Source of the DNA: Rubrivivax sp.
GTDB taxonomy: Bacteria; Pseudomonadota; Gammaproteobacteria; Burkholderiales; Burkholderiaceae_C
Assembly (NCBI GenBank): GCA_018780805.1
Contig: JADMJD010000112.1
Span: forward strand, 1-64,000
DNA length: 64,000 nt
Reading direction: 5' to 3'
Shown here one piece after another: positions 3,035-14,344 of the stretch (position 1 is its first letter; the number at the start of each line of letters is the position of its first letter). The notes beneath the pieces were generated by a model. That model made no database searches. It had not been told where the DNA came from and was given only the letters and a program-made list of their open reading frames with translations. The translations under genes and the position numbers were made by a program.

Positions 3035-4009
3035 ATGAAACCCGCACTGAAGTACCTGTTCCCCGGCTGGTACGCCATCCCGATGGGCCTGTCGGGCCTG
3101 GCGCTGGCCTGGCACCGGGCCGTGCCGCTGATGGGCGAGATGGCCGGCGCCGTGGCGATGCTCGTCGGCGGCGCGGCGGCCTTGAGCCTGCTGGTCCTGC
3201 TGGTGGCCACGGCGCTGCGCGGCTGGCACCATGCCGAGGCCTGGCGCGAGGACCGTGTGCACCCGGTGCGCCACACCTTCATCGCCACGCTGCCGATTGC
3301 CACGCTGCTGGTGGGCACCGTGGGCGTGGCCTTGTTCGGCCCGAACCCCGTGGCCCACGCGCTGTGGTGGGCCGGCAGCGGGGGGCAGCTGTTCACCACG
3401 GTGTGGGTGCTCGGCCGCTGGTGGGGCCGGCTGGCCTGGCCGTCGGTGACGCCGGCGCTGTTCATCCCCATCGTCGGCAATGTGCTGGTGCCGCTGGCCG
3501 GTGTGCCGCTGGGCCACACCGAGTGGGCGGCCGCGCAGTTCGGCATCGGGCTGCTGTTCTGGCCCGTGGTGCTGGTGTTGATCATCGCCCGCACCGCGGT
3601 GCAGGGCCTGTGGCCCGAGCGGCTGCGGCCGACGATCTTCATCTTCATTGCGCCCCCGGCGGTGGTGGGCTTGTCGGCGCTGCAGTTGGGCGCGCCGCTG
3701 CTGCTGGGCTGGATGTGCTGGGGCATGGCGCTGTTCAGCTTCCTGTGGGTGGGCACGCAGGCCAAGGTGATCGCAGCGCTGCCGTTTGCGCTGCCGCACT
3801 GGGCGCTGTCGTTTCCGATCGCGGCGCTGGCGGCACTGACGCTGCGGCTGGCCACGCCCGGCTCGCCGCTGACCGTGCTGGGCCCGCTGCTGCTGGCGCT
3901 GGCCTCGCTGGTGGTGCTGGCGCTGTTGCTGGCCACGCTGCGCGGGCTGCGCGACGGCTCGCTGCTGGCGCCCGAGCCGGTGGCGCCGCTGGTGGCCGCG
4001 GCTAGCTGA
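3035..4009 (+). CDS. TDT/SLAC1-family (TehA-like) anion transporter
   Basis: This 324-residue integral membrane protein has about ten hydrophobic helices and the N-terminal signature LFPGWYAIPMGLSGLALAW of the tellurite-resistance/dicarboxylate transporter (TDT) family, which includes TehA, SLAC1 anion channels and the sulfite exporter Ssu1. The substrate is not evident. Sulfite would fit next to OsmC and DUF2892, but that is inference. The Shine-Dalgarno GGGAGG lies in a predicted stem, so translation may be regulated. The 3' end overlaps the convergent exporter gene by 8 bp. Confidence 0.8.
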   Translation: MKPALKYLFPGWYAIPMGLSGLALAWHRAVPLMGEMAGAVAMLVGGAAALSLLVLLVATALRGWHHAEAWREDRVHPVRHTFIATLPIATLLVGTVGVALFGPNPVAHALWWAGSGGQLFTTVWVLGRWWGRLAWPSVTPALFIPIVGNVLVPLAGVPLGHTEWAAAQFGIGLLFWPVVLVLIIARTAVQGLWPERLRPTIFIFIAPPAVVGLSALQLGAPLLLGWMCWGMALFSFLWVGTQAKVIAALPFALPHWALSFPIAALAALTLRLATPGSPLTVLGPLLLALASLVVLALLLATLRGLRDGSLLAPEPVAPLVAAAS

Positions 4010-6062
4010 CCAGGCGCCCGCCGACCAGCGTGATCACGCGGTCGGCCGCGGCCACGGTCTGCGGCCGGTGCGCGATGGCCACACGTGTCAGCGCCAGGCT
4101 GCGCACGGCGTCGTTCACGGCCTGCTCGCGCGCCAGGTCCAGCGCGCTGGTGGCTTCGTCCAGCAGCAGCACCTGCGGTCTGCGGTACAGCGCACGCGCC
4201 AGCAGCACCCGTTGTTTCTGGCCGCCGGACAAGGTGTGGCCCAGGTCACCGACCAGCGTGTGGTAACCCATGGGCATGGCCTCGATCTCGTCGGCCACCG
4301 CCGCCAGGCGCGCGCAGGCAGCCACCCGCGCGAGGTCGGGCTGGGGTTCGAAGCCGGCGATGTTGTCGGCGATGGCGCCGGCAAACAGCGGTTCGTCCTG
4401 CATCACCGCACCGACACGTGCACGCCACGCCGTCAGCCCCACGCGCGCCAGCGGCAGGCCGCCGACCACGATCTGCCCGGACGTGGGTGCGTACAGGCCC
4501 AGCAGCAGCTTCATCAACGTGCTCTTGCCACCACCCGAGGGCCCGGTGATGGCCACCGATTCGCCCGCTTCGATGCGCAGCGACAGGCCGCTCAGCACCT
4601 CGGGCTCGCCGTCGGCGTAGCGGAAGCCCACGTCCACCAGCTCGATGGCCGGCGGGCCCGGGGGCAGCACCGCATCGCCGAGAGCCAGGGCTTCGGGTTC
4701 GGCCAGCGCGATGTCGGCCAGACGTTCGGCCTGCAGGCGCAGCATCCAGAGCTCGACCCCGCGGTCGATCAGCGTGCTGCAGCGCTGGCTGAACTGCTCC
4801 TTGTAGGCCAGGAACGCGAACAACATGCCCAGGCTGAGGCGCTGGTCCAGCACCAGCAGCGCACCCACACACAACACGGCCACACGCTCCAGGCCGAAGA
4901 GCAGCCGGTGGCCGGTGGAAAAACCCAGCGCCAGACGGCGTGCGGCCACGTCGGCGTTGGTGGCGTCCACCACCAGGCTCGCAAACCGTGACCCGCGGTC
5001 GGGCTCGGCACCGAAGAGCTTGATCGCGGCCATGCCACGCAGCGATTCCAGGAAGTGGCTGGCCTGCCGCGCTTCGTGTACCAGCACGGCCTCACTCGCG
5101 CGGCGCAGCGGGCGGAACCCCAGCCAGCGCAAGCCGGCGTACAGCAGCACCACGCCCGTGGCGATGGCCGCGAGCGTGCCGCTGTACAGCAGCATCAGCA
5201 CCAGCGTCAGCACCACCAGCAGGCCATCGAGCACCGCTTCGACAAAAGGGCCGGTGAGCGTGTGCTGGATCTGCTGCACCGAGCCAAAGCGCGACCAGAT
5301 GTCCCCCGCGTGGCGTTTCTCGAACCAGGGCAGCGGCAGCCGCAGCAGGTGCGCAAACACGTTGGCCAGCCACTGCTGGTTCAGCTGCGCTGACAGCGCC
5401 AGCACGGCCCAGCCGCGCAGCGCCGAAGTGGCGGCCTGCGCCAGCACCAGGCCGCCAAAGCCGATGGCCAGCACCAGCAGCAGGTCGCGGTCGGCGCTGA
5501 TCAGCACGTCGTCCACCACCCACTGCAGCAAAAAGGGGTTCAGCAGCACGAAGGCTTCCAGCACCAGCGCCAGCAGCAGGATCTGCCCCAGCGCGCGCTT
5601 GAGCCCGGCCACCGGACCCACCAGCGAGCCCAGGCGCAGGCGCACGGCCTCGTGCCGGGGCTGGAAGGCCGGCATCGGCGTCAGCTCCAGCGCGATGCCG
5701 GTGAAATGCGGCGAGGCTTCGGCCAGCGTCAGCCGGCGCGCGCCGCTGGCCGGGTCGTGGATCCACACATGGCGGCCGCTGACCCGCAGCAGCACGACGA
5801 AGTGGTTCAGGTCCCAGTGCAGGATGCAGGGGGTCTTGAGCTGTGGCAGCTGGTCCAGCTCGGCGCGCAGCGCCCGGCCCTGCAGCTGCAGCGTGGCGGC
5901 CATGCGCACCAGGTCGGCCAGCGTCAAGCCCTTCAGCGACAGCGAAAGGCGGCGGCGAAGCGCCGGCAGGTCGGTGACCAGGCCGTGGGCGCCGGCCACC
6001 ATGGCCAGGCAGGCCAGGCCACATTCGGCGGCCTCGGTCTGCAGGATGAGCGGGACTTTCAC
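4002..6062 (-). CDS. C39-peptidase ABC exporter for double-glycine peptides (CvaB-like)
   Basis: This is a bacteriocin-type ABC exporter of 686 residues if it starts at GTG 6062, where a GTGA overlap with the adaptor stop suggests coupling; an ATG at 6101 would add 13 residues. Domains in order: peptidase C39 (residues 1-125) with Cys14 in TEAAECGLACL, His87 in DLNHFVVL and Asp103 in IHDPASG; a six-helix membrane domain; and an ATPase with GPSGGGKST, LSGGQKQR, LLLDEATSALD and the AIAHR switch. The family cleaves leaders after Gly-Gly and pumps out the mature peptide. The LPRGTW-repeat peptide upstream is the obvious substrate. Confidence 0.93.
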   Translation of the reverse strand: MKVPLILQTEAAECGLACLAMVAGAHGLVTDLPALRRRLSLSLKGLTLADLVRMAATLQLQGRALRAELDQLPQLKTPCILHWDLNHFVVLLRVSGRHVWIHDPASGARRLTLAEASPHFTGIALELTPMPAFQPRHEAVRLRLGSLVGPVAGLKRALGQILLLALVLEAFVLLNPFLLQWVVDDVLISADRDLLLVLAIGFGGLVLAQAATSALRGWAVLALSAQLNQQWLANVFAHLLRLPLPWFEKRHAGDIWSRFGSVQQIQHTLTGPFVEAVLDGLLVVLTLVLMLLYSGTLAAIATGVVLLYAGLRWLGFRPLRRASEAVLVHEARQASHFLESLRGMAAIKLFGAEPDRGSRFASLVVDATNADVAARRLALGFSTGHRLLFGLERVAVLCVGALLVLDQRLSLGMLFAFLAYKEQFSQRCSTLIDRGVELWMLRLQAERLADIALAEPEALALGDAVLPPGPPAIELVDVGFRYADGEPEVLSGLSLRIEAGESVAITGPSGGGKSTLMKLLLGLYAPTSGQIVVGGLPLARVGLTAWRARVGAVMQDEPLFAGAIADNIAGFEPQPDLARVAACARLAAVADEIEAMPMGYHTLVGDLGHTLSGGQKQRVLLARALYRRPQVLLLDEATSALDLAREQAVNDAVRSLALTRVAIAHRPQTVAAADRVITLVGGRLVS

Positions 6063-7321
6063 AGCCGCTGTTGTAGCCCGAGCAGTGGCTCGAACAGCCA
6101 TTCAACCAGGCGGCGCCGCTCCAGCATCACGTCGGCCTGCAGGCGCAGGCCGCTGGCCAGCGGGCGCTGGGCCCAGGCCGGGGGCAGCGTGTCCAGCACC
6201 ACGGTGATGCGGTAGAGCGGTTCGCCGCCGTGTGCGGCGCCCGGCGTCAGGCCTAGCAAGGGCAGGCTGGCCAGCTCCGCCCCGGCCAGCGGCACCTGTG
6301 CGATCTGCCGCACCACGCCGGCCAGCGCGCCGAACCTGGCGTGCGGCCAGGCCTCCAGCCGCAGCCGCGCGGCCTGGCCCACACGCAGCGGCCCCAGGTG
6401 CCGGCCGGGCACATACAACTCGGCCAGCAGTTGGCTGCCGGCCGGCAGCAGGCTGGCCAGCGCCGTGGGCGGTGCCACGCTCTGACCGGGCTGGGCCAGC
6501 AGGCCGTGCACGGTGCCGTCCTGCGGTGCACGCACGGTGATGCGGCGCTCGCCCTGCAAACCGGCCCCGTCGCGTGTGGCCTCGGCGATCTGGGCGTCGA
6601 GCTGCGCCAGCACGCTGTCGCGCTCGGGGCCCACGGCCGCCAGTTCACCAACGAGCGCCGCGCGTTCGCGGGCCAGCGCGGCGGCTTCGCGGCCCAGCGC
6701 CTGGGCGGCGCCTTCCAGGGCCAGCACCTCTTCCTGGCGCGCCTGCAACTGGGCATCGGAGACAAAGCCCTGGCCCTGCAAGGCCTGCAGCCGCGCGAGC
6801 GAGTCGCGCGCCAGCGCCAGGCGGCGCGTCTGCAGGGCGGCTTCGGCCTCGGCGCGCGTGGTGGCCAGGTCCAGGGCCTTCAAGCGGCGCTCCAACGCAG
6901 TACGGCGGGTGTCGGCCAGTGCACGCTGGCGGTCTGCGGCGGCCTGCAGGCTGCTGCGCTGGGCTTCCACGGCGCGGTCCACCGCGGCCTGGCGCGCGTC
7001 GTCGCGCGAGAAGCTGTCCTGGGCCAGCACGAACAAGACGTCGCCGCGGCGCACGGCCTGGCCTTCGGCCACGTGGCGCTCCAGCAAGGTGGCGGGGGCG
7101 GCGGGCACCAGGCGCAGCAGGCCCCGGTCGGGCACCAGCACACCGGGCACGACGGCCTTGCGGGTGTAGGACCCCAGCGACAGGAACAACGCGGTCGCCA
7201 GAGCCAACAACAACACCGCCAGCGCGAGCCAGCGCAAGGCCAGCGGCTGGGCCAACTGCACAGGACCCAGCCACTGCTGTTGCACGGCCTGCACGGCCTC
7301 GGGCCGGAACAGGCTGCTCAA
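6059..7321 (-). CDS. HlyD-family periplasmic adaptor of type I secretion
   Basis: This 420-residue membrane fusion protein has a short cytosolic N-terminus, one transmembrane helix (about residues 30-50), a barrel-sandwich half, a long alanine/arginine/glutamate-rich coiled coil (about 110-240), and a second lipoyl half with the TVRAPQDGTVHGLLAQPGQ signature. It would bridge the C39 exporter to an outer-membrane TolC channel, which is not encoded in this window. Its stop overlaps the exporter start (GTGA). A hairpin terminator separates it from the upstream peptide gene, so its expression probably depends on read-through. Confidence 0.92.
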   Translation of the reverse strand: MSSLFRPEAVQAVQQQWLGPVQLAQPLALRWLALAVLLLALATALFLSLGSYTRKAVVPGVLVPDRGLLRLVPAAPATLLERHVAEGQAVRRGDVLFVLAQDSFSRDDARQAAVDRAVEAQRSSLQAAADRQRALADTRRTALERRLKALDLATTRAEAEAALQTRRLALARDSLARLQALQGQGFVSDAQLQARQEEVLALEGAAQALGREAAALARERAALVGELAAVGPERDSVLAQLDAQIAEATRDGAGLQGERRITVRAPQDGTVHGLLAQPGQSVAPPTALASLLPAGSQLLAELYVPGRHLGPLRVGQAARLRLEAWPHARFGALAGVVRQIAQVPLAGAELASLPLLGLTPGAAHGGEPLYRITVVLDTLPPAWAQRPLASGLRLQADVMLERRRLVEWLFEPLLGLQQRL

Positions 7322-7370
7322 GGGGCGGTCAACCGGTGATCAACGGGTTCTCAAAGGGTGACACGGGCAG

Positions 7371-7400
7371 CAAAAAATGCGGACCGGGATCACCCGGCCC
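7371..7400 (-). terminator. Intrinsic terminator between the peptide gene and the exporter genes
   Basis: Read on the minus strand, an 8-bp stem (GGGCCGGG with CCCGGUCC, one G-U pair, 4-nt loop UGAU) is followed by GCAUUUUUUG. It lies 59 nt past the peptide stop and 50 nt before the HlyD start. It should trim most transcripts after the peptide gene and allow limited read-through to the exporter. Confidence 0.75.
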
Positions 7401-7458
7401 GCCGACGCAAAGGATCTCCGGAGAGGAGCCCTGCCGCGTCAAGCCACCCAAAGGCACA

Positions 7459-7662
7459 TCACCAGGTGCCTCTGGGCAATGCAGATTCCCAGGTTCCCCG
7501 GGGCAAAGCTTCAACCTCAGACCAGGTCCCACGGGGCAGACCCAGCGGCTCGGACCAGGTGCCACGCGGCAGGCCACCAGCGACTTGGCACATCTGTGCC
7601 GGGTCGAGCTCCACCGGGGCAGCAGTGGAATGAAAACTGCCGTTGTTCGTGATTTGTTCCAT
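7459..7662 (-). CDS. Double-glycine leader peptide with four LPRGTW repeats (novel secreted-peptide precursor)
   Basis: This encodes a 67-residue precursor. Residues 1-30 form a leader ending in ELDPAQMCQVAGG, which fits the double-glycine leader pattern (hydrophobic at -12, -7 and -4, Gly-Gly at -2/-1). Residues 31-67 are the core: LPRGTW at 31-36, 42-47, 53-58 and 62-67, separated by SEPLG, SEVEA and ESA. The six codons of the four repeats differ at silent positions, so the peptide itself is under selection. GGAG lies upstream of ATG 7662. Genes for a C39 exporter and adaptor follow, and a LuxR-type regulator precedes it on the same strand. I know no described family with this core. It may be a signal, a bacteriocin or a modified peptide; no maturation enzyme is obvious. 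Confidence 0.85.
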   Translation of the reverse strand: MEQITNNGSFHSTAAPVELDPAQMCQVAGGLPRGTWSEPLGLPRGTWSEVEALPRGTWESALPRGTW

Positions 7663-7703
7663 GATGACGCTCCACCAATCCGCTGATTTGTGCCAAATGC
7701 ACC

Positions 7704-7717
7704 GCGTTTTTCAACGC
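7704..7717. promoter_or_regulatory. Inverted repeat GCGTT-N4-AACGC upstream of the peptide gene
   Basis: A perfect 5-bp inverted repeat with a 4-nt spacer lies 42 nt upstream of the peptide start. It may be an operator or a small leader hairpin. I have no independent support for either. Confidence 0.3.
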
Positions 7718-7753
7718 CACGGATTGATTGCAGCAGCCAACGGCGCTGCGGGG

Positions 7754-7773
7754 TAGTGTCATCTCTTACAGGG
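7754..7773. promoter_or_regulatory. Partial lux-box-like dyad upstream of the LPRGTW peptide gene
   Basis: The 20-bp sequence TAGTGT-N8-ACAGGG has the spacing of the classical lux box (ACCTGT-N8-ACAGGT), with five of six matches in one half and TGT conserved in the other. It lies 91 nt upstream of the peptide ATG, which leaves room for a promoter centred about 42 nt downstream. It is a plausible binding site for the adjacent LuxR protein. Confidence 0.4.
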
Positions 7774-7811
7774 TGCACACGGTACAACGACCTTCAGTGC
7801 AACGCCATGAC

Positions 7812-8561
7812 TCAGTGGATCAAACCCAAACGAAGGGCCTTCAGAACGGCCTGGTGCTTGTTTGCACAGCCCAGCTTGTGCATGGCGTTGTTCACGTGCA
7901 GCACAGCCGTGCGTTCACTGATGCCCAGAATCTGGCCCACCTCCCAAGCGGTCTTGCCTTCCATGGTCCAGGAGAGCGCCTCAATCTCACGGGGCGTCAA
8001 GGCCGGGCGTTCCGGCTGCTGCGCTTCAGGCAGCAACAGGCGCAAGGCAGCCTCCTGGGCATGGACCGCAAACAACTGAAGGTCAGCAACAACGCGTTGC
8101 AGTTCCCCCACATTGCTGGGCAGGGGCTGATCCCGGTCCACGCCGAGCAAGAAGTGTCGTCCTTCAGGCAAGTGCAGGGCCATCGCGATCCCTGTGGTGA
8201 AACCGAAGTGGGACTGGTGCTCCCACAGGTCAATGGCGCCGCTGGCGATGTAGGTACTTTGATCCCAGATGATCGGCACGCTCTGGCGCTTGAGATGCTG
8301 CATCACCGGGTCGCGGCGGCCGAGTGTCGGGGCAAAGTAGGCGTCAACATAGGCGGCCGGGGTGTTGTCGACGATGATGAATTCGCTTTGGCCGAGGCCC
8401 CTGTCGACAACTGTGGTGGCCGACACGGTCTCGAAACCCAGCCCCTGCGTGAAGCGCACGACGGCGTCGCGGAACTCTTCGCGGTTCCGCGCTTCAAGGA
8501 CTGCCGTGTAGCCAGTCGGAAGCAGCATCCGTTGATCACGCTCCACGTGCAAATGGCGCAC
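7812..8561 (-). CDS. LuxR-family regulator with autoinducer-binding domain (LuxR solo)
   Basis: This 249-residue protein (GTG 8561; ATG 8528 also possible) has an N-terminal autoinducer-binding domain and a C-terminal LuxR helix-turn-helix (about residues 180-245, LTPREIEALSWTMEGKTAWEVG). Of the acyl-homoserine-lactone pocket residues, the Asp-Pro (RRDPVM), the later Trp (PIIWDQ) and the Gly (GFTTG) are present, but the Trp four residues before the Tyr of the W-x3-Y pair appears to be Tyr. No luxI lies in the window. It precedes the LPRGTW peptide and its exporter on the same strand and probably controls them. Base composition is visibly less GC-rich than the surroundings. Confidence 0.88.
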   Translation of the reverse strand: MRHLHVERDQRMLLPTGYTAVLEARNREEFRDAVVRFTQGLGFETVSATTVVDRGLGQSEFIIVDNTPAAYVDAYFAPTLGRRDPVMQHLKRQSVPIIWDQSTYIASGAIDLWEHQSHFGFTTGIAMALHLPEGRHFLLGVDRDQPLPSNVGELQRVVADLQLFAVHAQEAALRLLLPEAQQPERPALTPREIEALSWTMEGKTAWEVGQILGISERTAVLHVNNAMHKLGCANKHQAVLKALRLGLIH

Positions 8562-8573
8562 GCAAACTAGGGG

Positions 8574-8584
8574 CCCTGACAGGG
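8574..8584. promoter_or_regulatory. Palindrome CCCTG-A-CAGGG upstream of luxR
   Basis: A perfect 11-bp palindrome lies 13 nt before the luxR start, in the divergent luxR/8620 intergenic region. It shares ACAGGGT with the lux-box-like site before the peptide gene, so it could be an autoregulatory LuxR site. Confidence 0.35.
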
Positions 8585-8619
8585 TTTACAGCTTTCGGCG
8601 GAAGCGGCGATGACGAAAC

Positions 8620-9057
8620 ATGAGCACCATGCAAACCAGCACCGCACTCCGCCATTCACCCCCTCCGCCCTCCATCACGCCCGCGGTCGCACCGTGGACC
8701 TTGCGGGCGTGGCCTCCTTTATTGTGGCAGGCAGGGGAGACACCGGGCGCCCGGTTCCGGCACCTTGGCACACGGATCACGTTCACGGGCGACCGCATGG
8801 TGCGCATGGCCGGCCAGACGCTCTGGGGGGGCAGCCTGGACGACGGCGACGCCGGTGTCGCCTGGGACTGGGTTCAGATCTCGCGCGGCGTGGTCGCGCT
8901 GGCCGACCCGATGTCGGTGGTGACCAACCTGCGCCTGGTGGGCGACGAGGGCGAGGTGCTCACCGCGCTGCAGTCGTCGCTGTACCTGAACGCCCTGGTG
9001 CACGGCCTGCCGTGGCAGTCCGAGGTGGAACGCGCGCTGCGCGGCGCGCCGAATTGA
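8620..9057 (+). CDS. Hypothetical protein
   Basis: This is a 145-residue protein of unknown function (ATG 8620; ATG 8629 would remove three residues). The first 40 residues are proline-rich and probably disordered. The rest looks like a small compact fold with ITFTGDRMVRMAGQTLWGGS and an acidic, tryptophan-containing middle. I see no signal peptide, membrane helix or catalytic motif. It is divergent from luxR with a short shared intergenic region, so it could be controlled with the peptide locus, but nothing in its sequence ties it to peptide modification or immunity. Confidence 0.6.
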   Translation: MSTMQTSTALRHSPPPPSITPAVAPWTLRAWPPLLWQAGETPGARFRHLGTRITFTGDRMVRMAGQTLWGGSLDDGDAGVAWDWVQISRGVVALADPMSVVTNLRLVGDEGEVLTALQSSLYLNALVHGLPWQSEVERALRGAPN

Positions 9058-9134: not shown

Positions 9135-10301
9135 TCAGCGCACCGCCGCCGTCTTCAGCGTGCGCGCCACGTAGGCCACCGCCAGCACCGTCAGCGCGAT
9201 GCACACGCCCAGCGGCACGGCGTGTTCCAGCAGCGCGGTGGGTTCACCCTTCAGCACACGGCCCATCAACGTCACCTGGGCCAGGGCCGGCACCCACAGG
9301 TGCCAGGCCTGCACACCCTCCTGGTTGAACAGCGTGGCCAGCGGCAGCATGGACACACCCAGCACCACGACGGTGGCATTGGCCTGGGCCTCCTTGAAGC
9401 TCTTGCAGCGGATGGCGATCGCCATCAGCAACGCGGCCAGGGCGCCGGCCAGCGGCAGCAGCAGGGCCAGGAAACGCAGCATCTCCGGGGCGCCGAAGCG
9501 GAACAGCGCCGCCAGCGTCTCGCTCTTGAGCAACCACTGTCCGGGCAGGAAGCTGAAACACGAGAGCACCGCGATCAACATGCCGACGCTGGCCACCGCG
9601 CCCCACTTGCCCAGCACCAGGGCCGTGCGCGCCGCCGGGTTCATCAGCAGCGGCTCCAGCGAACCCCGCTCACGCTCGCCGGCCGTGGTGTCCAGGGCCG
9701 CGTTCAGCGCACCGTACAGCACCGCCATCAGCACGAAGTACGGCACCATCGTGGCCAGTTGCGCCGCGCGCGTGGCGGGGTTGGCGATGTCGCGCTCCTC
9801 CACCTGCATGGCCTCCAGCGCCGCCGGCGACAGCCCGCGCACCGCCAGCCGCAGCGTGGCCTGCTCGCGGTTGTAGCCCTGCAGCAAGTTCACCAGGCGC
9901 CGCATGCCGGTGTTGGCACGCTGGTTGGCGCTGCTGCCCACCACCTCGACCACGGGCGCGTCACCCCGTGCGAGTTGGGCCTCGAAGTCAGCCGGGATCA
10001 CCAGCACAGGGTCGCCGAGTTTGCTGTCCTGCAGCTGTTTTTCCCAGTCGGCCGGCGCGGGTTTGAGTGTGTAGGTCTGGCGCTGCAGGTAGTTCACCAG
10101 CGAAGGGCCATGGTCGAGACCGAGCACGACGATCTCACGCGCCTCGGCGCGTTTTTCCATGCCCGAGACCAGGGCCGAGATCAGCACCAGCACCAGCGGC
10201 CCGATGGCCACCGAGCTGAGCAGCACCATCAGCAGCGTGCGGCGGTCGCGCAGCGCATCCAGCAGTTCCTTGCGGAAGACGGTGAGGGCGTCGCGGATCA
10301 C
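9135..10301 (-). CDS. ABC-2 type transporter permease (NatB-like)
   Basis: This 388-residue permease has an N-terminal helix after RKELLDALRDRRTLLMVLLSS, a large extracytoplasmic domain (about residues 50-180), then five or six C-terminal helices. TTAGERERGSLEPLLMNP is the ABC-2/NatB hallmark preceding the membrane core. NatAB of Bacillus exports sodium, but homologues in Proteobacteria are largely uncharacterised. The start overlaps the ATPase gene stop (ATGA), and both follow a secreted hydrolase gene in one operon. The substrate is unknown. Confidence 0.88.
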   Translation of the reverse strand: MIRDALTVFRKELLDALRDRRTLLMVLLSSVAIGPLVLVLISALVSGMEKRAEAREIVVLGLDHGPSLVNYLQRQTYTLKPAPADWEKQLQDSKLGDPVLVIPADFEAQLARGDAPVVEVVGSSANQRANTGMRRLVNLLQGYNREQATLRLAVRGLSPAALEAMQVEERDIANPATRAAQLATMVPYFVLMAVLYGALNAALDTTAGERERGSLEPLLMNPAARTALVLGKWGAVASVGMLIAVLSCFSFLPGQWLLKSETLAALFRFGAPEMLRFLALLLPLAGALAALLMAIAIRCKSFKEAQANATVVVLGVSMLPLATLFNQEGVQAWHLWVPALAQVTLMGRVLKGEPTALLEHAVPLGVCIALTVLAVAYVARTLKTAAVR

Positions 10302-11071
10302 GATTGGCCTCCGCGGGCGCGTTCGTCGTCGGTGAAGGCCAGGTGCACAAAGGTCTCCTCGAAGTCGGTCTGCCCGGCGCGGGCGTTGAGTTCGGCCACC
10401 GTGCCTTCGGCCACGGTGCGGCCATGCGAGACCAGCACCACGCGGTCACAGAGGTAGGCCACCTCCTGCATGATGTGGGTGGAAAACACGATGCACTTGC
10501 CGTGTTCGTCGCGCAGGCGGCGCAGGGCCTCGCGCAGCGCGCGTGTGGCCAGCACGTCCAGGCCGTTGGTGGGCTCGTCCAGGATGATGTTGGCCGGGTC
10601 GTGCACCAGGGCACGGGCCAGCGCGGTCTTCATGCGTTCACCCTGGCTGAAGCCTTCGGTGCGGCGGTCCAGCAGGGCCTGCATCTCCAGCATCTGCGCC
10701 AGGGTCTCGGCGCGCTCGGCGGCCTGCTCGGCGCCCATGCCGTGCAGCCGGCCGTAGTAGACGATGTTCTCGCGCGCCGTCAGCCGCGGGTACAGGCCGC
10801 GCGCGTCGCTCAACACGCCCAGGCGGGCCAGGGCCTCGCGCGGCTTGCGGGCGACGTCGATGCCATCCACCGCGATGCGGCCGCTGTCGGGCTCGATCAG
10901 CGCCGCGACCATGCGCAGCGTGGTGGTCTTGCCGGCGCCGTTGGGGCCCAGCACGCCGGTGATGGCGCCGTCGTCGGCCGTCCAGCTGACACGGTCCACG
11001 GCCTGCACGGTGCGCGCCTTCTTGCCACGGCCCTGCACGAAGCGCTTGGCCAGGTCCTGCACTTCGATCAT
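10298..11071 (-). CDS. ABC transporter ATP-binding protein (NatA-like)
   Basis: This is a 257-residue ATPase with Walker A GPNGAGKTTTL (about residue 43), signature FSQGERMKTALARAL, Walker B NIILDEPTNGLD and the switch His in VFSTHIMQE. The wording is that of DrrA/NatA-type importers-turned-exporters. It pairs with the NatB-like permease downstream (ATGA overlap) and overlaps the hydrolase gene upstream by ATGA, so all three are translated from one message. Confidence 0.92.
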   Translation of the reverse strand: MIEVQDLAKRFVQGRGKKARTVQAVDRVSWTADDGAITGVLGPNGAGKTTTLRMVAALIEPDSGRIAVDGIDVARKPREALARLGVLSDARGLYPRLTARENIVYYGRLHGMGAEQAAERAETLAQMLEMQALLDRRTEGFSQGERMKTALARALVHDPANIILDEPTNGLDVLATRALREALRRLRDEHGKCIVFSTHIMQEVAYLCDRVVLVSHGRTVAEGTVAELNARAGQTDFEETFVHLAFTDDERARGGQS

Positions 11072-12531
11072 GACGGGCTCCCGGGTTGGATGGGCTGCCG
11101 TATGGGCTGGAAGACCGGCGGGCGCGGGATGGCCTCCACGCAGGCGGTGTCGACCTTCAGCGCGTCGGCGCCGGCTTCGGCGTCGATGAAGCGGAACAGC
11201 ACGTCACGCATGCAGCCGATGCCCATCACACCGTGGCCCGCGTTGGGCACCACCACGTGGCGGGCCATCGGGCCCAGCGCCTGTGCCGTGCGGGCGCCAT
11301 GGCGCGGCGGGGTCACCGGGTCCAGGCCACCGGACAGCACCAGCGTCGGCGCGCTGGCTGCCGGCATCTTGTAGAAGTCCGCCGGCACCACGCCGCGCGG
11401 CCATGTGGCGCAGGTTTCCTGGTACAGACGGGCGGCAAAGTCACCCAGGTCGGCGCCGGGGGCGTCCGTCGCGGCCGCCATGCGCGGCGCGTCTTCGGCG
11501 CAGACCACCGAGAAGTGCATGCCCTCGGCCATCTGGCCAAAACCACGGCGGCCGTTCAAGGCCCCGGCCACGCCGAAAAACGCCTCGAAGCGGCCGGCCG
11601 CAGCCTCGGCGATGGCCAGCGGCAGCGCCGAGGCCAGTGCCGGCGCGTACAGCGGCGCGCGCAGCAGCGCGCCGGCCATGTCGGCCGTCAACACCACCCG
11701 CTCAGGCAGGCCGGTGACCGGGTGCGTGAGCGTCACCTCCCGCGGTAGCGAGGCCAGCAAGCCCCGCCACTGGGCGCGCAGATCGGGGCTGCGGGCGCGG
11801 CAGGCGGCGTCGGCCTGGCACTGCGCCACCAGGGTGTCGAAGGCCGACTGGCCGTCGGTGGAGAAGCTGACCGGCAGCACCATGTCCGGCGGCGCCACAC
11901 CGTCGATCACCGACCGGCGCACGGCCTGCGGGAACAACCGTTGGTACTCCAGCGCCGCACGCGTGCCGTAGGAGCCGCCCACCAGGTTGATCTGCGCCGC
12001 ACCCAGGGCCTGGCGCACGGCGTCCACGTCGGCCATCGCGATGGTGGTGGTGTACTGGCGCAGGTCGCCGTGCGCCAGCTTCTGCAAGGCGTCGCGGCAG
12101 CGGGCCAGGCGCTCGCGCATCGCGGCCGGGTCGGCCTGCTCGCGCATCGGGCGTGTGGGGTCGGGCGCTTCGCAGGCCAACGGGGCGCTGCGGCCGGTGC
12201 CGCGCTGGTCGACCAGCACGATGTCGCGCCGGTTCGACAGCCGCGCCAGCAGGCGGCTCATCGGGCCGGCCAGCTCGATCGCACTCTGGCCCGGGCCGCC
12301 GGCAAAGAAGAAGACCGGGTCGGGCTTCTTGTTGCGCGCCAGGGCCGGCAGCACGGCGTAGTGGATGTCGATGCTGGGGCCGTCGGGCCGGGCCGGGTCG
12401 AGCGGGCGGGCGACGGTGCCGCACACAGCGTCGTGTTCGACACCGCGCAGGCGGCAGGGCTCGGGCAAGGCAGCGTCGGCCAGGCTGGCACCAAGGGCCA
12501 AGGCCAGGGGCAGGAGGTGGTGGGGTCTCAT
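11068..12531 (-). CDS. Secreted alpha/beta hydrolase, tripeptidyl-aminopeptidase-like
   Basis: This 487-residue protein has a signal peptide (cleavage near ASLADA). Family S33 features: the oxyanion segment FFFAGGPGQSAIE, DQRGTGRSAPL, the nucleophile elbow GGSYGTRAALEY, the acid in LSGGLDPVTPP and the His in NAGHGVM. Relatives (TAP, SlpD/E, prolyl aminopeptidases) release short N-terminal peptides. It is the first gene of an operon with a NatAB-like transporter (ATGA overlap), which suggests a joint role in handling a peptide or other small molecule. The exact substrate is unknown. Confidence 0.88.
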   Translation of the reverse strand: MRPHHLLPLALALGASLADAALPEPCRLRGVEHDAVCGTVARPLDPARPDGPSIDIHYAVLPALARNKKPDPVFFFAGGPGQSAIELAGPMSRLLARLSNRRDIVLVDQRGTGRSAPLACEAPDPTRPMREQADPAAMRERLARCRDALQKLAHGDLRQYTTTIAMADVDAVRQALGAAQINLVGGSYGTRAALEYQRLFPQAVRRSVIDGVAPPDMVLPVSFSTDGQSAFDTLVAQCQADAACRARSPDLRAQWRGLLASLPREVTLTHPVTGLPERVVLTADMAGALLRAPLYAPALASALPLAIAEAAAGRFEAFFGVAGALNGRRGFGQMAEGMHFSVVCAEDAPRMAAATDAPGADLGDFAARLYQETCATWPRGVVPADFYKMPAASAPTLVLSGGLDPVTPPRHGARTAQALGPMARHVVVPNAGHGVMGIGCMRDVLFRFIDAEAGADALKVDTACVEAIPRPPVFQPIRQPIQPGSPS

Positions 12532-12605
12532 GGCGCCGCATTGTGGCGGCGGGGTCCGCCCCCGGCGGGCGGCTGCGGACGAACGGCCGGCCGGCGCGGC
12601 GAACG

Positions 12606-12621
12606 GCCCGCCCTGGCGGGC
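12606..12621 (-). terminator. GC-rich hairpin after the thioredoxin-domain gene
   Basis: GCCCGCC and GGCGGGC form a 7-bp inverted repeat with a 2-nt centre, 43 nt past the stop of the gene ending at 12664. No real U-tract follows, so it is only a weak terminator candidate. Confidence 0.3.
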
Positions 12622-12663
12622 GGGCGGCGGCTCAGGCCGGGTTCAGGCTCGACTCAGCGCAGT

Positions 12664-14229
12664 TCAGGCCGATTTGGCAGCCGGCTTCAGCAGGCCTTGG
12701 CAGGCCTCGCGCGCCGAGGCCTCGACCCCCCGGCAGACACCGTCCAGCTGGCGCTGCAATCGCTGCAGCGCGGCGGCCTGCTTGCCGTCAGCGTTCCAGC
12801 TGACGAGCTTTTTGCCCAGCCGCTGCAGCGAACGCACGCTGCGGCCGCTGAAGGCGCTGCTGTCCTTGCCGGCCTCGGTGATCAGCTGCGCGGCGGTGGC
12901 CTCGATGCGCTTGCTGTCCTGCGGCGCCAGGTCCACCAGCGCCGTCAGGTAGCTGTTGCCCCATTGCAGCCGGGTGGCGGGCCCTTCGCTCTTGGCAAAA
13001 GCCTGGCCGTACCAGTCCAGCGCCTGCGCGGTCTGGCCGCGCTTGCGCGCGTTGCCGCCGAGCTGGCTCATCAGGTAGTAGGGCGAGTGGCTGCGGGCCA
13101 GGTTGCTTTTGAGCAGCGCATCGCTGTCGTCCCACTGGCCGACCTGGCCCAGCGCGTAGGCGGCGGCAGTGATCACGGCCTGGCGCTCGTAGCCGTCGGT
13201 GATCTCGCGGTCGTCGCGCGCCACATGCGTTTTCACCTCGGCCACCAGGGCGGCCGGCAGATCGGGCTTGATGCTGTCGCGCGGCTGGCCCAGGCGGGCC
13301 AGCGCGATGCGGCCGATCAAGGCCGAGATGCGGTCGCCACGGGACAGGCCGGCGTCGGCCTCCAGGCGGCGCAGGGCGGCGGCGAAGTTGGCCACCAGCG
13401 GCGCACGCTCGGCGCTGTCGTCGTCCGTCAGCGCGCGCACGATCTCGGCGGCTTCGTTGGCCAGCACGTCGGCATGACGGCGCGCCAGCGCCGGATCGGC
13501 CAGCACCTTGGCCACACGTTCGCGCAGCGCGGCGTCGGCCTTCAGGCCCTTGCCTTCGTCGCTGGCGGCCACGGCCTTGAGCCACAACCGGGTGCTGGTG
13601 TCGGCATCGGCGGCAGGGGCGGCCAGCGCCAGCTGGGCCAGCACGCCGGGCAGATCGGTGTCGGACACCAGCCGCTGCTCGTCGGTGCCGAACGAATAAA
13701 ACGCCAGCATGCGCCACTCGCCAGCCGTCAGCGGCTTGCCGGCGCGGGCATCGGCCAGCACCTCGGCCACGGTGCGGCCACCGGCCAGGCCCAGCTGCAG
13801 CACGGCCATCATGCGCTCGGGGTCGGCTTCGCCCGGCAGGCGGGTGATCTCGGCCCCGGCCGGGTTGAACAGCACCACGGTGGGGTAGCCGCTCACCTTG
13901 AACCGGCTGCCGATCTTCTGCGCGCCGGGGCGGTCACCGTCCACGTGCACGGCCACGAAACCACGCGAGGCCTGGGCAAAGTCCTGGCGGTTGAAGAACG
14001 TGGCCTTCAGCTGGTTGCACGGCGGGCACCACGTCGCGCCCCAGTACATCAGCAGAGGCTTGTTCTGCGCCTTGGCCTGGGCAAAGAGCCGGTCGACATC
14101 GGCGTCCACCGCGGCGGGCAGCCAGGTGACGTTGCTGGACGGGGGGCCGATGGCGGCCTGGGCAGGGTTGACGGCGGGCGCGCAGATCAGCGCACAAATG
14201 ATCGTCATGGCGCGCAGGGCAGGGGTCAT
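12664..14229 (-). CDS. Secreted thioredoxin-domain protein with long helical C-terminus
   Basis: This 521-residue protein starts at ATG 14229, with GGAG 8 nt upstream; an ATG at 14250 is less likely. A signal peptide (cleavage near NPAQA) is followed by a thioredoxin fold (about residues 30-150) with active site ATWCPPCNQ and a cis-Pro in SGYPTVVLF. The remaining 370 residues are Ala/Leu-rich helices resembling tetratricopeptide-like repeats. It probably acts as a periplasmic thiol-disulfide enzyme or scaffold. It is divergent from prsT. No redox partner lies next to it. Confidence 0.82.
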   Translation of the reverse strand: MTPALRAMTIICALICAPAVNPAQAAIGPPSSNVTWLPAAVDADVDRLFAQAKAQNKPLLMYWGATWCPPCNQLKATFFNRQDFAQASRGFVAVHVDGDRPGAQKIGSRFKVSGYPTVVLFNPAGAEITRLPGEADPERMMAVLQLGLAGGRTVAEVLADARAGKPLTAGEWRMLAFYSFGTDEQRLVSDTDLPGVLAQLALAAPAADADTSTRLWLKAVAASDEGKGLKADAALRERVAKVLADPALARRHADVLANEAAEIVRALTDDDSAERAPLVANFAAALRRLEADAGLSRGDRISALIGRIALARLGQPRDSIKPDLPAALVAEVKTHVARDDREITDGYERQAVITAAAYALGQVGQWDDSDALLKSNLARSHSPYYLMSQLGGNARKRGQTAQALDWYGQAFAKSEGPATRLQWGNSYLTALVDLAPQDSKRIEATAAQLITEAGKDSSAFSGRSVRSLQRLGKKLVSWNADGKQAAALQRLQRQLDGVCRGVEASAREACQGLLKPAAKSA

Positions 14230-14344
14230 CAGAGCTCCAGGGTGTGACACAGTCCCGCAAATTGTGCGCCGGGTTGAACCAATGTGTGTGGCGTCGCGTC
14301 AATCCGCACAGGGCAAAAGGCCGGTGGTGGCCTAGGATCAGCGG

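Follow-up and report, generated by a model that had tools for sequence, protein, structure and literature searches.

Which signal does a LuxR-type regulator read when no LuxI synthase accompanies it and the gene that follows encodes a small repetitive peptide? This question is raised by a locus in a 64,000-nt stretch of Rubrivivax sp. DNA (hereinafter the window, meaning the whole stretch analysed), where a LuxR solo precedes a peptide precursor gene, a HlyD-type adaptor and a C39 peptidase ATP-binding cassette (ABC) exporter. Comparison of related loci suggests that this LuxR is the direct receptor of the ribosomally synthesized peptide and activates that peptide's own operon, which would constitute a quorum circuit free of acyl-homoserine lactone (AHL); we put the probability of this reading at roughly 0.78. 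Because residue 5 of the peptide core co-varies with residue 81 of LuxR, the regulator is probably a receptor and not a mere neighbour of the precursor.

The locus is better delimited at about positions 4002-9057. To the genes described in the original prediction, this adds a lux-box-like site and an RsaM-like gene:

7459..7662, minus strand: peptide precursor gene, 67 aa, with a double-glycine (GG) leader and four LPRGTW copies (sequence and relatives)
7573..7662, minus strand: precursor leader, 30 aa, ending VAGG, with C39 cleavage predicted past Gly30 (sequence, leader alignment)
7462..7572, minus strand: precursor core, 37 aa (sequence, codons)
7555-7572, 7522-7539, 7489-7506 and 7462-7479, minus strand: LPRGTW copies (sequence)
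7755..7771, minus strand: putative lux-box-like operator, CTGTAAGAGATGACACT (pattern match across loci)
7812..8561, minus strand: LuxR solo, predicted peptide receptor (Pfam, alignment, co-variation)
8620..9057, plus strand: RsaM-like gene, a distant DUF4902/PF16245 relative, divergent from luxR (homologues, weak profile match)
6059..7321, minus strand: HlyD-type periplasmic adaptor (Pfam)
4002..6062, minus strand: C39 peptidase ABC exporter with a GTG start at 6062, its open frame extending to 6101 (Pfam, sequence)

The 67-residue open reading frame (ORF) with its GG leader and 37-residue core is confirmed by the sequence, which reads MEQITNNGSFHSTAAPVELDPAQMCQVAGG / LPRGTWSEPLG / LPRGTWSEVEA / LPRGTWESA / LPRGTW*. 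As originally described, the four LPRGTW copies are spaced 11, 11 and 9 residues apart; they encode the same hexapeptide with codons that differ at synonymous sites. Cleavage past Gly30 of this leader is what the C39 family would be expected to perform. Neither Pfam (E ≤ 0.001) nor NCBIfam (E ≤ 1) contains a family that matches the precursor. Pfam likewise bears out the HlyD adaptor and the LuxR (Autoind_bind and GerE domains), whose profile match spans 7815-8525, so that the true start may be internal. In the exporter, which contains Peptidase_C39, ABC_membrane and ABC_tran domains, the GTG start at 6062 yields the predicted Cys14, His87 and Asp103 and a 4-nt overlap with the HlyD gene. The lux-box-like site lies 40 nt past the luxR stop codon and 92 nt ahead of the precursor ATG.

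To place the locus among its relatives we compiled 89 loci, comprising the window, 80 GTDB contigs (the best 80 of 169 relatives from a LuxR profile search) and 8 further genomes. The GTDB loci come from Rubrivivax, Roseateles, Leptothrix, Rhizobacter, Piscinibacter, Ideonella, Methylibium, Aquabacterium, Aquincola, Paucibacter and other Burkholderiales. A separate search of 299 genomes of the family with the single window precursor listed 218 of them at E ≤ 1, nearly all by chance; 22 of 30 loci from this search were translated and 13 relatives retained. GG-leader ORFs with xPxxxW cores are present in the frames around these 13 matches, with a LuxR of 62-71% identity to the window LuxR directly before each precursor in the fetched regions and HlyD and C39 genes following it in 11 of the 13 (L037 and L041 have neither). 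The relatives thus hold what the original prediction expected of them, namely homologous GG-leader ORFs with conserved repeats beside luxR and mostly also beside HlyD and C39 genes, rather than missing ORFs or lost frames and repeats.

The peptide core is conserved as a pattern and diverse as a sequence. An ATG-initiated ORF ending in PxxxW follows luxR at 75 of the 88 loci with enough sequence, whereas dinucleotide shuffles would yield 1.3 and the opposite strand gives 1 (ORFs of 15-110 aa, motif 0-3 residues from the stop), and GG or GA precedes the PxxxW core at 71 of the 88 (0.4 in shuffles). Copies of PxxxW within a precursor are identical in 36 of 40 multi-copy precursors, and 96 codon differences among copies are synonymous versus 8 nonsynonymous (405 codon comparisons); as judged from these sequences, selection acts on the core. 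Across genomes the cores vary, with 66 distinct six-residue cores in 113 LuxR-peptide pairs, and the Trp is gone from the cores of a clade of eight loci (LPRVS, LPRIGG and the like). Some cores comprise 5-7 residues, as in the precursors GG-LPKATW and GG-APRPMW. Two unlike cores, such as LPHRTW and LPHGSW, occur together in four precursors (L045-L085 group, L051, L059, L093, L097), perhaps representing two signals or a change in progress.

Residue 81 of LuxR, three positions before a conserved Asp-Pro, is Gly in the window. Sorting LuxR sequences by core revealed that Gly81 accompanies Thr at peptide position 5 and that a bulky residue 81 accompanies Gly5. On a 77-tip tree built without LuxR column 81, Thr5 pairs with Gly81 in 31 of 31 cases; opposite Gly5, residue 81 is W, Y, M, Q, F, H or I in 30 of 31 cases, Ala in one and never Gly. 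The size class at position 81 switches in 14 of 15 path-disjoint contrasts versus 1 of 24 controls, and Gly81 is the top of 432 residue/column splits by association. The 77 tips derive from 85 assigned cores, with 8 omitted for an absent Trp or a seven-residue core (L047, L050, L053, L057, L058, L068, L072 and L108); the cores of L049, L090, L095 and L103 were unassigned at that time. The core of L103, present as seven GPRGTW copies with no leader, was read once the rule had been stated, and its LuxR carries Gly81 as predicted.

A later set of 36 distinct LuxR proteins, obtained from 50 candidates after removal of copies identical to loci already used, is a fresh sample of the same family rather than an independent lineage. 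Here Thr5 pairs with Gly81 in 7 of 10 cases (the rest being Ser, Ser and Ala) and Gly5 pairs with Gly81 in 0 of 21 (p = 4.6e-5), the Gly5 partners being bulky in 12 and Ala, Ser or Cys in 9. Omitted from this set were L150 (box and precursor absent), L153 (Trp absent), L193 (stop codon in luxR), L166 and L197 (paralogues), L168 and L169 (seven-residue core) and the extra LuxR paralogues of L158-L164. When all 113 pairs are combined, residue 81 is bulky in 42 of 52 Gly5 pairs versus 0 of 61 others, and Gly81 occurs in none of the 52. In all 23 phylogenetically disjoint contrasts, residue 81 is larger in the pair with Gly5 (two-sided sign test, p = 2.4e-7), a result unchanged when residues 60-90 are omitted from the tree, while the next-best of 111 LuxR columns reaches p = 0.03.

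Size complementarity at a pocket position is what direct binding predicts, and position 81 appears to be such a position. LuxR residues 67, 71, 75 and 81 align without gaps to LasR Tyr56, Trp60, Tyr64 and Ala70. According to PMC9654057, LasR makes polar contacts to its ligand through Trp60, Asp73, Tyr56 and Ser129, and its ligand-detection residues include Tyr64 and Ala70. One of three aligned AHL contacts is kept in the window LuxR (Tyr56 corresponds to Thr67, Trp60 to Tyr71 and Asp73 to Asp84). An AlphaFold model of the protein (mean predicted local distance difference test score, pLDDT, 75.5) is closest to QscR, RhlR, LasR and SdiA. Neither the window's own genome nor any of the 25 genomes searched in the genus, 8 of which are less than 90% complete, gave a LuxI (PF00765) match; PF00765 passes its cut-off in three other-family genomes among 41 searched and in none of 14 control genomes.

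The co-variation bears on two other explanations. A GG leader with C39 and HlyD genes is also the layout of class II bacteriocins, and some LuxR solos respond to plant compounds or to AHLs of external origin (PMC10134790), so one could picture a secreted bacteriocin or effector peptide beside a LuxR that answers an exogenous small molecule such as an AHL or a plant compound. We regard this as improbable: agreement in 23 of 23 contrasts is unexpected if LuxR is blind to the peptide, a bacteriocin would be expected to be larger than the cores of 5-7 residues, and versions without a leader persist. Between the signal and the bacteriocin that the original prediction left side by side, the former gained from the co-variation and the latter gained no support; its broader idea of an undescribed exported-type peptide, perhaps under quorum control, is supported, and the locus is one member of a large family for which no description was found. 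Alternatively, a third partner such as the RsaM-like protein or a peptidase could see the peptide while LuxR adapts to that partner. The RsaM-like gene is indeed found at every locus, but the top column is a ligand-pocket position of the LuxR fold and its change is size-complementary, making an indirect origin of the co-variation very improbable.

A candidate operator accompanies the receptor and peptide genes. A site near CTGTAAGAGNTGACAGT, of the type CTG-N10-CAG, lies between luxR and the precursor at 88 of 89 loci; we take it to resemble the V. fischeri lux box. Across the 89 loci it scores 14-20 of 20 positions versus 9-14 for the reversed pattern, with L095 scoring only 11 because its contig ends there. 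In the window's own genome (5.18 Mb), the box at 7755-7771 is the sole match with at most two mismatches, and in 15 of 15 other genomes a box match lies at the precursor promoter. Degenerate copies are also seen in the rsaM-luxR intergenic region (best scores mostly 11-13 of 16 versus 9-11 for the reversed pattern), and autoregulation of luxR or rsaM through them is possible.

Several observations weigh against LuxR as the receptor in a peptide quorum circuit. All the evidence is computational. The PxxxW test, which was automated, failed at 13 of 88 loci; by eye, the cores are divergent in 8 of these, and the others differ in start codon or end position. L150 has neither box nor precursor. The small and bulky classes were defined after inspection of the data, and scoring strictly for Gly at position 81 gives weaker results, with switches in 11 of 15 contrasts versus 1 of 24 controls on the 77-tip tree and in 16 of 23 versus 5 of 35 for all 113 pairs. 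Ala, Ser or Cys occupies position 81 in 10 of the 52 Gly5 pairs. A branch test counting any residue change does not place peptide 5 and LuxR 81 in its top 25, and it finds no general excess of coupling for the ligand domain versus the helix-turn-helix (HTH) domain; we attribute the former to bulky-to-bulky changes that dilute the signal. The pairs that the test does list include peptide 4 with residues 75, 67 and 81 (z = 3.36 for 4/81) and peptide 3 with residue 74. Strict box matches elsewhere in the 15 genomes are near background (11 versus 8 for the reversed-pattern control), and the box search found no regulon past the operon in these or in the window's own genome. No uptake system is linked to the locus, and the window copy of the RsaM-like protein matches PF16245 weakly (E = 0.01; 16.2 bits against a cut-off of 25).

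Where Gly5 meets a small residue 81, peptide position 4 is Lys, Arg or Thr in 8 of 10 pairs, as if position 4 took up part of the space.

If LuxR is the receptor, the circuit may operate as follows. As the protein families suggest, the translated precursor would be cleaved past the GG, and the C39/HlyD machinery would carry the core out of the cell. After final trimming, a short form ending in PxxxW (LPRGTW in the window) would re-enter or stay in the cytoplasm and occupy the LuxR pocket that corresponds to the AHL site of LasR, with peptide residue 5 packing against LuxR residue 81, a contact proposed from co-variation and not from a structure. Liganded LuxR would then bind the box at 7755-7771 and activate the precursor-HlyD-C39 operon, closing a positive loop. 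Several copies per precursor could provide a higher signal dose, and the product of the divergent RsaM-like gene probably keeps the loop in check, a role that RsaM plays in AHL systems.

Whether the peptide must leave the cell is where leader and exporter become informative. Among the 80 GTDB loci (the best 80 of 169), a C39 gene is present in 68 and a HlyD gene too in 67; three contigs stop within 642 nt of luxR (L045, L088, L095), and nine loci have 5 kb of sequence with C39 absent. Nine loci (L090, L100, L103, L104, L115, L119, L165, L167, L190) encode leaderless ORFs of 18-63 aa in which the core is present and the GG leader absent, such as MQATHQTQTTTLLPRNGW. They fall into two clades of a FastTree phylogeny (support 0.83 and 1.0). 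A C39 exporter match at E ≤ 1e-60 is absent from 7 of the 9 leaderless genomes, and the other 2 have one elsewhere (52-55% identity); all 4 genomes tested in which the GG leader has no exporter beside it encode a C39 exporter at another site. The leader therefore tracks the exporter.

Core, box and LuxR are retained where leader and adjacent exporter were lost, and this bears on a further explanation: LuxR, cytoplasmic by family, might read its own peptide inside the producer as a timer or metabolic gauge, with the exporter clearing the peptide and no signal passing between cells. The two leaderless clades, mostly devoid of a C39 exporter genome-wide, speak for such a gauge. Leader and exporter beside the precursor are nevertheless the rule, and the 4 GG-leader genomes tested that have no adjacent exporter encode one at another site; we consider a purely intracellular gauge unlikely for the family. 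Judging from the leaderless forms, some lineages may sense the peptide within its producer. For the family as a whole, we favour LuxR as the probable receptor of a presumably exported peptide signal.

Each of the 89 loci carries a homologue of the RsaM-like gene at 8620-9057, encoded on the opposite strand to luxR; it lies about 1.5 kb from luxR at L122 and is cut by the contig end at L097. PF16245 matches 11 of 14 relatives at E ≤ 0.1 (best 6.4e-5), and PDB entry 4o2h (BCAM1869), presumably the RsaM of B. cenocepacia, is a weak match (E = 0.22 and 0.43). The review PMC10710839 equates DUF4902/PF16245 with RsaM, which regulates AHL quorum sensing, and describes rsaM-luxR pairs that are divergent and lack luxI in Kinneretia, Pelomonas and Albitalea. 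In its type 6 topology, assigned to these three and others, rsaM is divergent from luxR while luxI is either missing or encoded far away. This topology seems to be the present locus, and a text search found the word "peptide" nowhere in the main text of that paper.

Beyond these neighbours, a linked block precedes the locus:

9135..12531, minus strand: ABC-2 permease, ABC ATPase and TAP-like alpha/beta hydrolase (Pfam)

The ABC-2 permease homologue occurs in 64 of the 80 GTDB loci (best 80 of 169), and in 57 of the 67 of those 80 with at least 3.5 kb upstream of luxR. A survey of 150 genomes of the family finds the permease homologue in 44, including 10 with no LuxR orthologue or close paralogue at E ≤ 1e-60.

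At the same threshold, 81 of the 299 genomes of the family, and 38 of 141 genera, have a LuxR orthologue or close paralogue. Outside the family, the LuxR profile matched 1 of 399 genomes of the order (G409, locus L227, with different neighbouring genes) and, among 369 genomes of the class, the window alone, with at most 7 candidates scored per genome in both searches. At L227, from another family of the order, the related LuxR scores 224 bits and is accompanied by a DUF4902 gene; a GG-leader ORF in the vicinity seems unrelated. A precursor profile of 14 sequences matched 3 of 399 genomes of the order, with few candidates scored per genome and misses likely; the match in G588 was rejected as chance (an 877-aa frame). 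A plasmid search gave no match. Four peptide loci (L158, L159, L160 and L161) carry tandem arrays of 3 to 5 LuxR paralogues in which the box occurs only by the LuxR preceding the precursor; the extra paralogues are possibly receptors for foreign peptides.

Each component of the system is already known on its own: LuxR solos, GG peptides with C39 exporters, and rsaM. Streptococcal double-glycine pheromones (ComC/BlpC) have a GG leader that is cut, and are exported, by a C39 ABC exporter, and they auto-induce, as we propose here. Their receptor is a membrane histidine kinase, whereas the present one would be a cytoplasmic LuxR, and the precursors here often hold multiple identical copies; no histidine kinase appeared in a Pfam scan of the window neighbours (9135-14250 and the locus), which was not extended genome-wide. 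RRNPP receptors and phage arbitrium systems respond, inside the cell, to a short peptide released from the C-terminal end of a precursor, and their signals and receptors diversify in concert. Those systems use a tetratricopeptide repeat (TPR) receptor fold and oligopeptide permease uptake, in contrast to the LuxR fold and Gram-negative hosts here. With LuxI/LuxR AHL systems bearing rsaM, as presented in PMC10710839, the locus shares an Autoind_bind/GerE LuxR, a lux-box-like operator, a positive-loop layout and a divergent rsaM-like gene; it differs in that no LuxI was found in the genus and the signal gene encodes a peptide.

The nearest precedent is PipR/OryR, a LuxR solo that answers peptide-like inducers and has a peptidase and a transporter encoded nearby. 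As far as the available parts of PMC4981722 and PMC10134790 describe, the PipR inducers are exogenous (plant macerate, and Ser-His-Ser at high concentration), with an ethanolamine derivative also among them (PMC10134790), and no cognate peptide gene is present there, unlike the peptide gene found here. A LuxR with its own ribosomal peptide ligand was not found in openly licensed PMC full text (bioRxiv preprints excluded), nor in the available portions of PMC10134790 and PMC13220807. The novelty claimed is this pairing of LuxR with its own peptide, and it depends on LuxR being the receptor.

We consider it likely, with somewhat less confidence than for the receptor assignment itself, that the family represents a new class of LuxR signal, in which ribosomal xPxxxW peptides occupy the AHL pocket, one Burkholderiales family has evolved more than 60 specificities by lock-and-key co-evolution, and leader and exporter were lost twice. 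In the textbook view, Gram-negative bacteria read AHLs through LuxR, and peptides are read by other receptors in Gram-positive bacteria. If true, a LuxR with a gene-encoded peptide would cross this divide, and a set of LuxR solos without any ligand would gain one. The 66 distinct cores and 113 receptor-peptide pairs would then form a natural library for decoding specificity, in which each pair predicts its own ligand from sequence.

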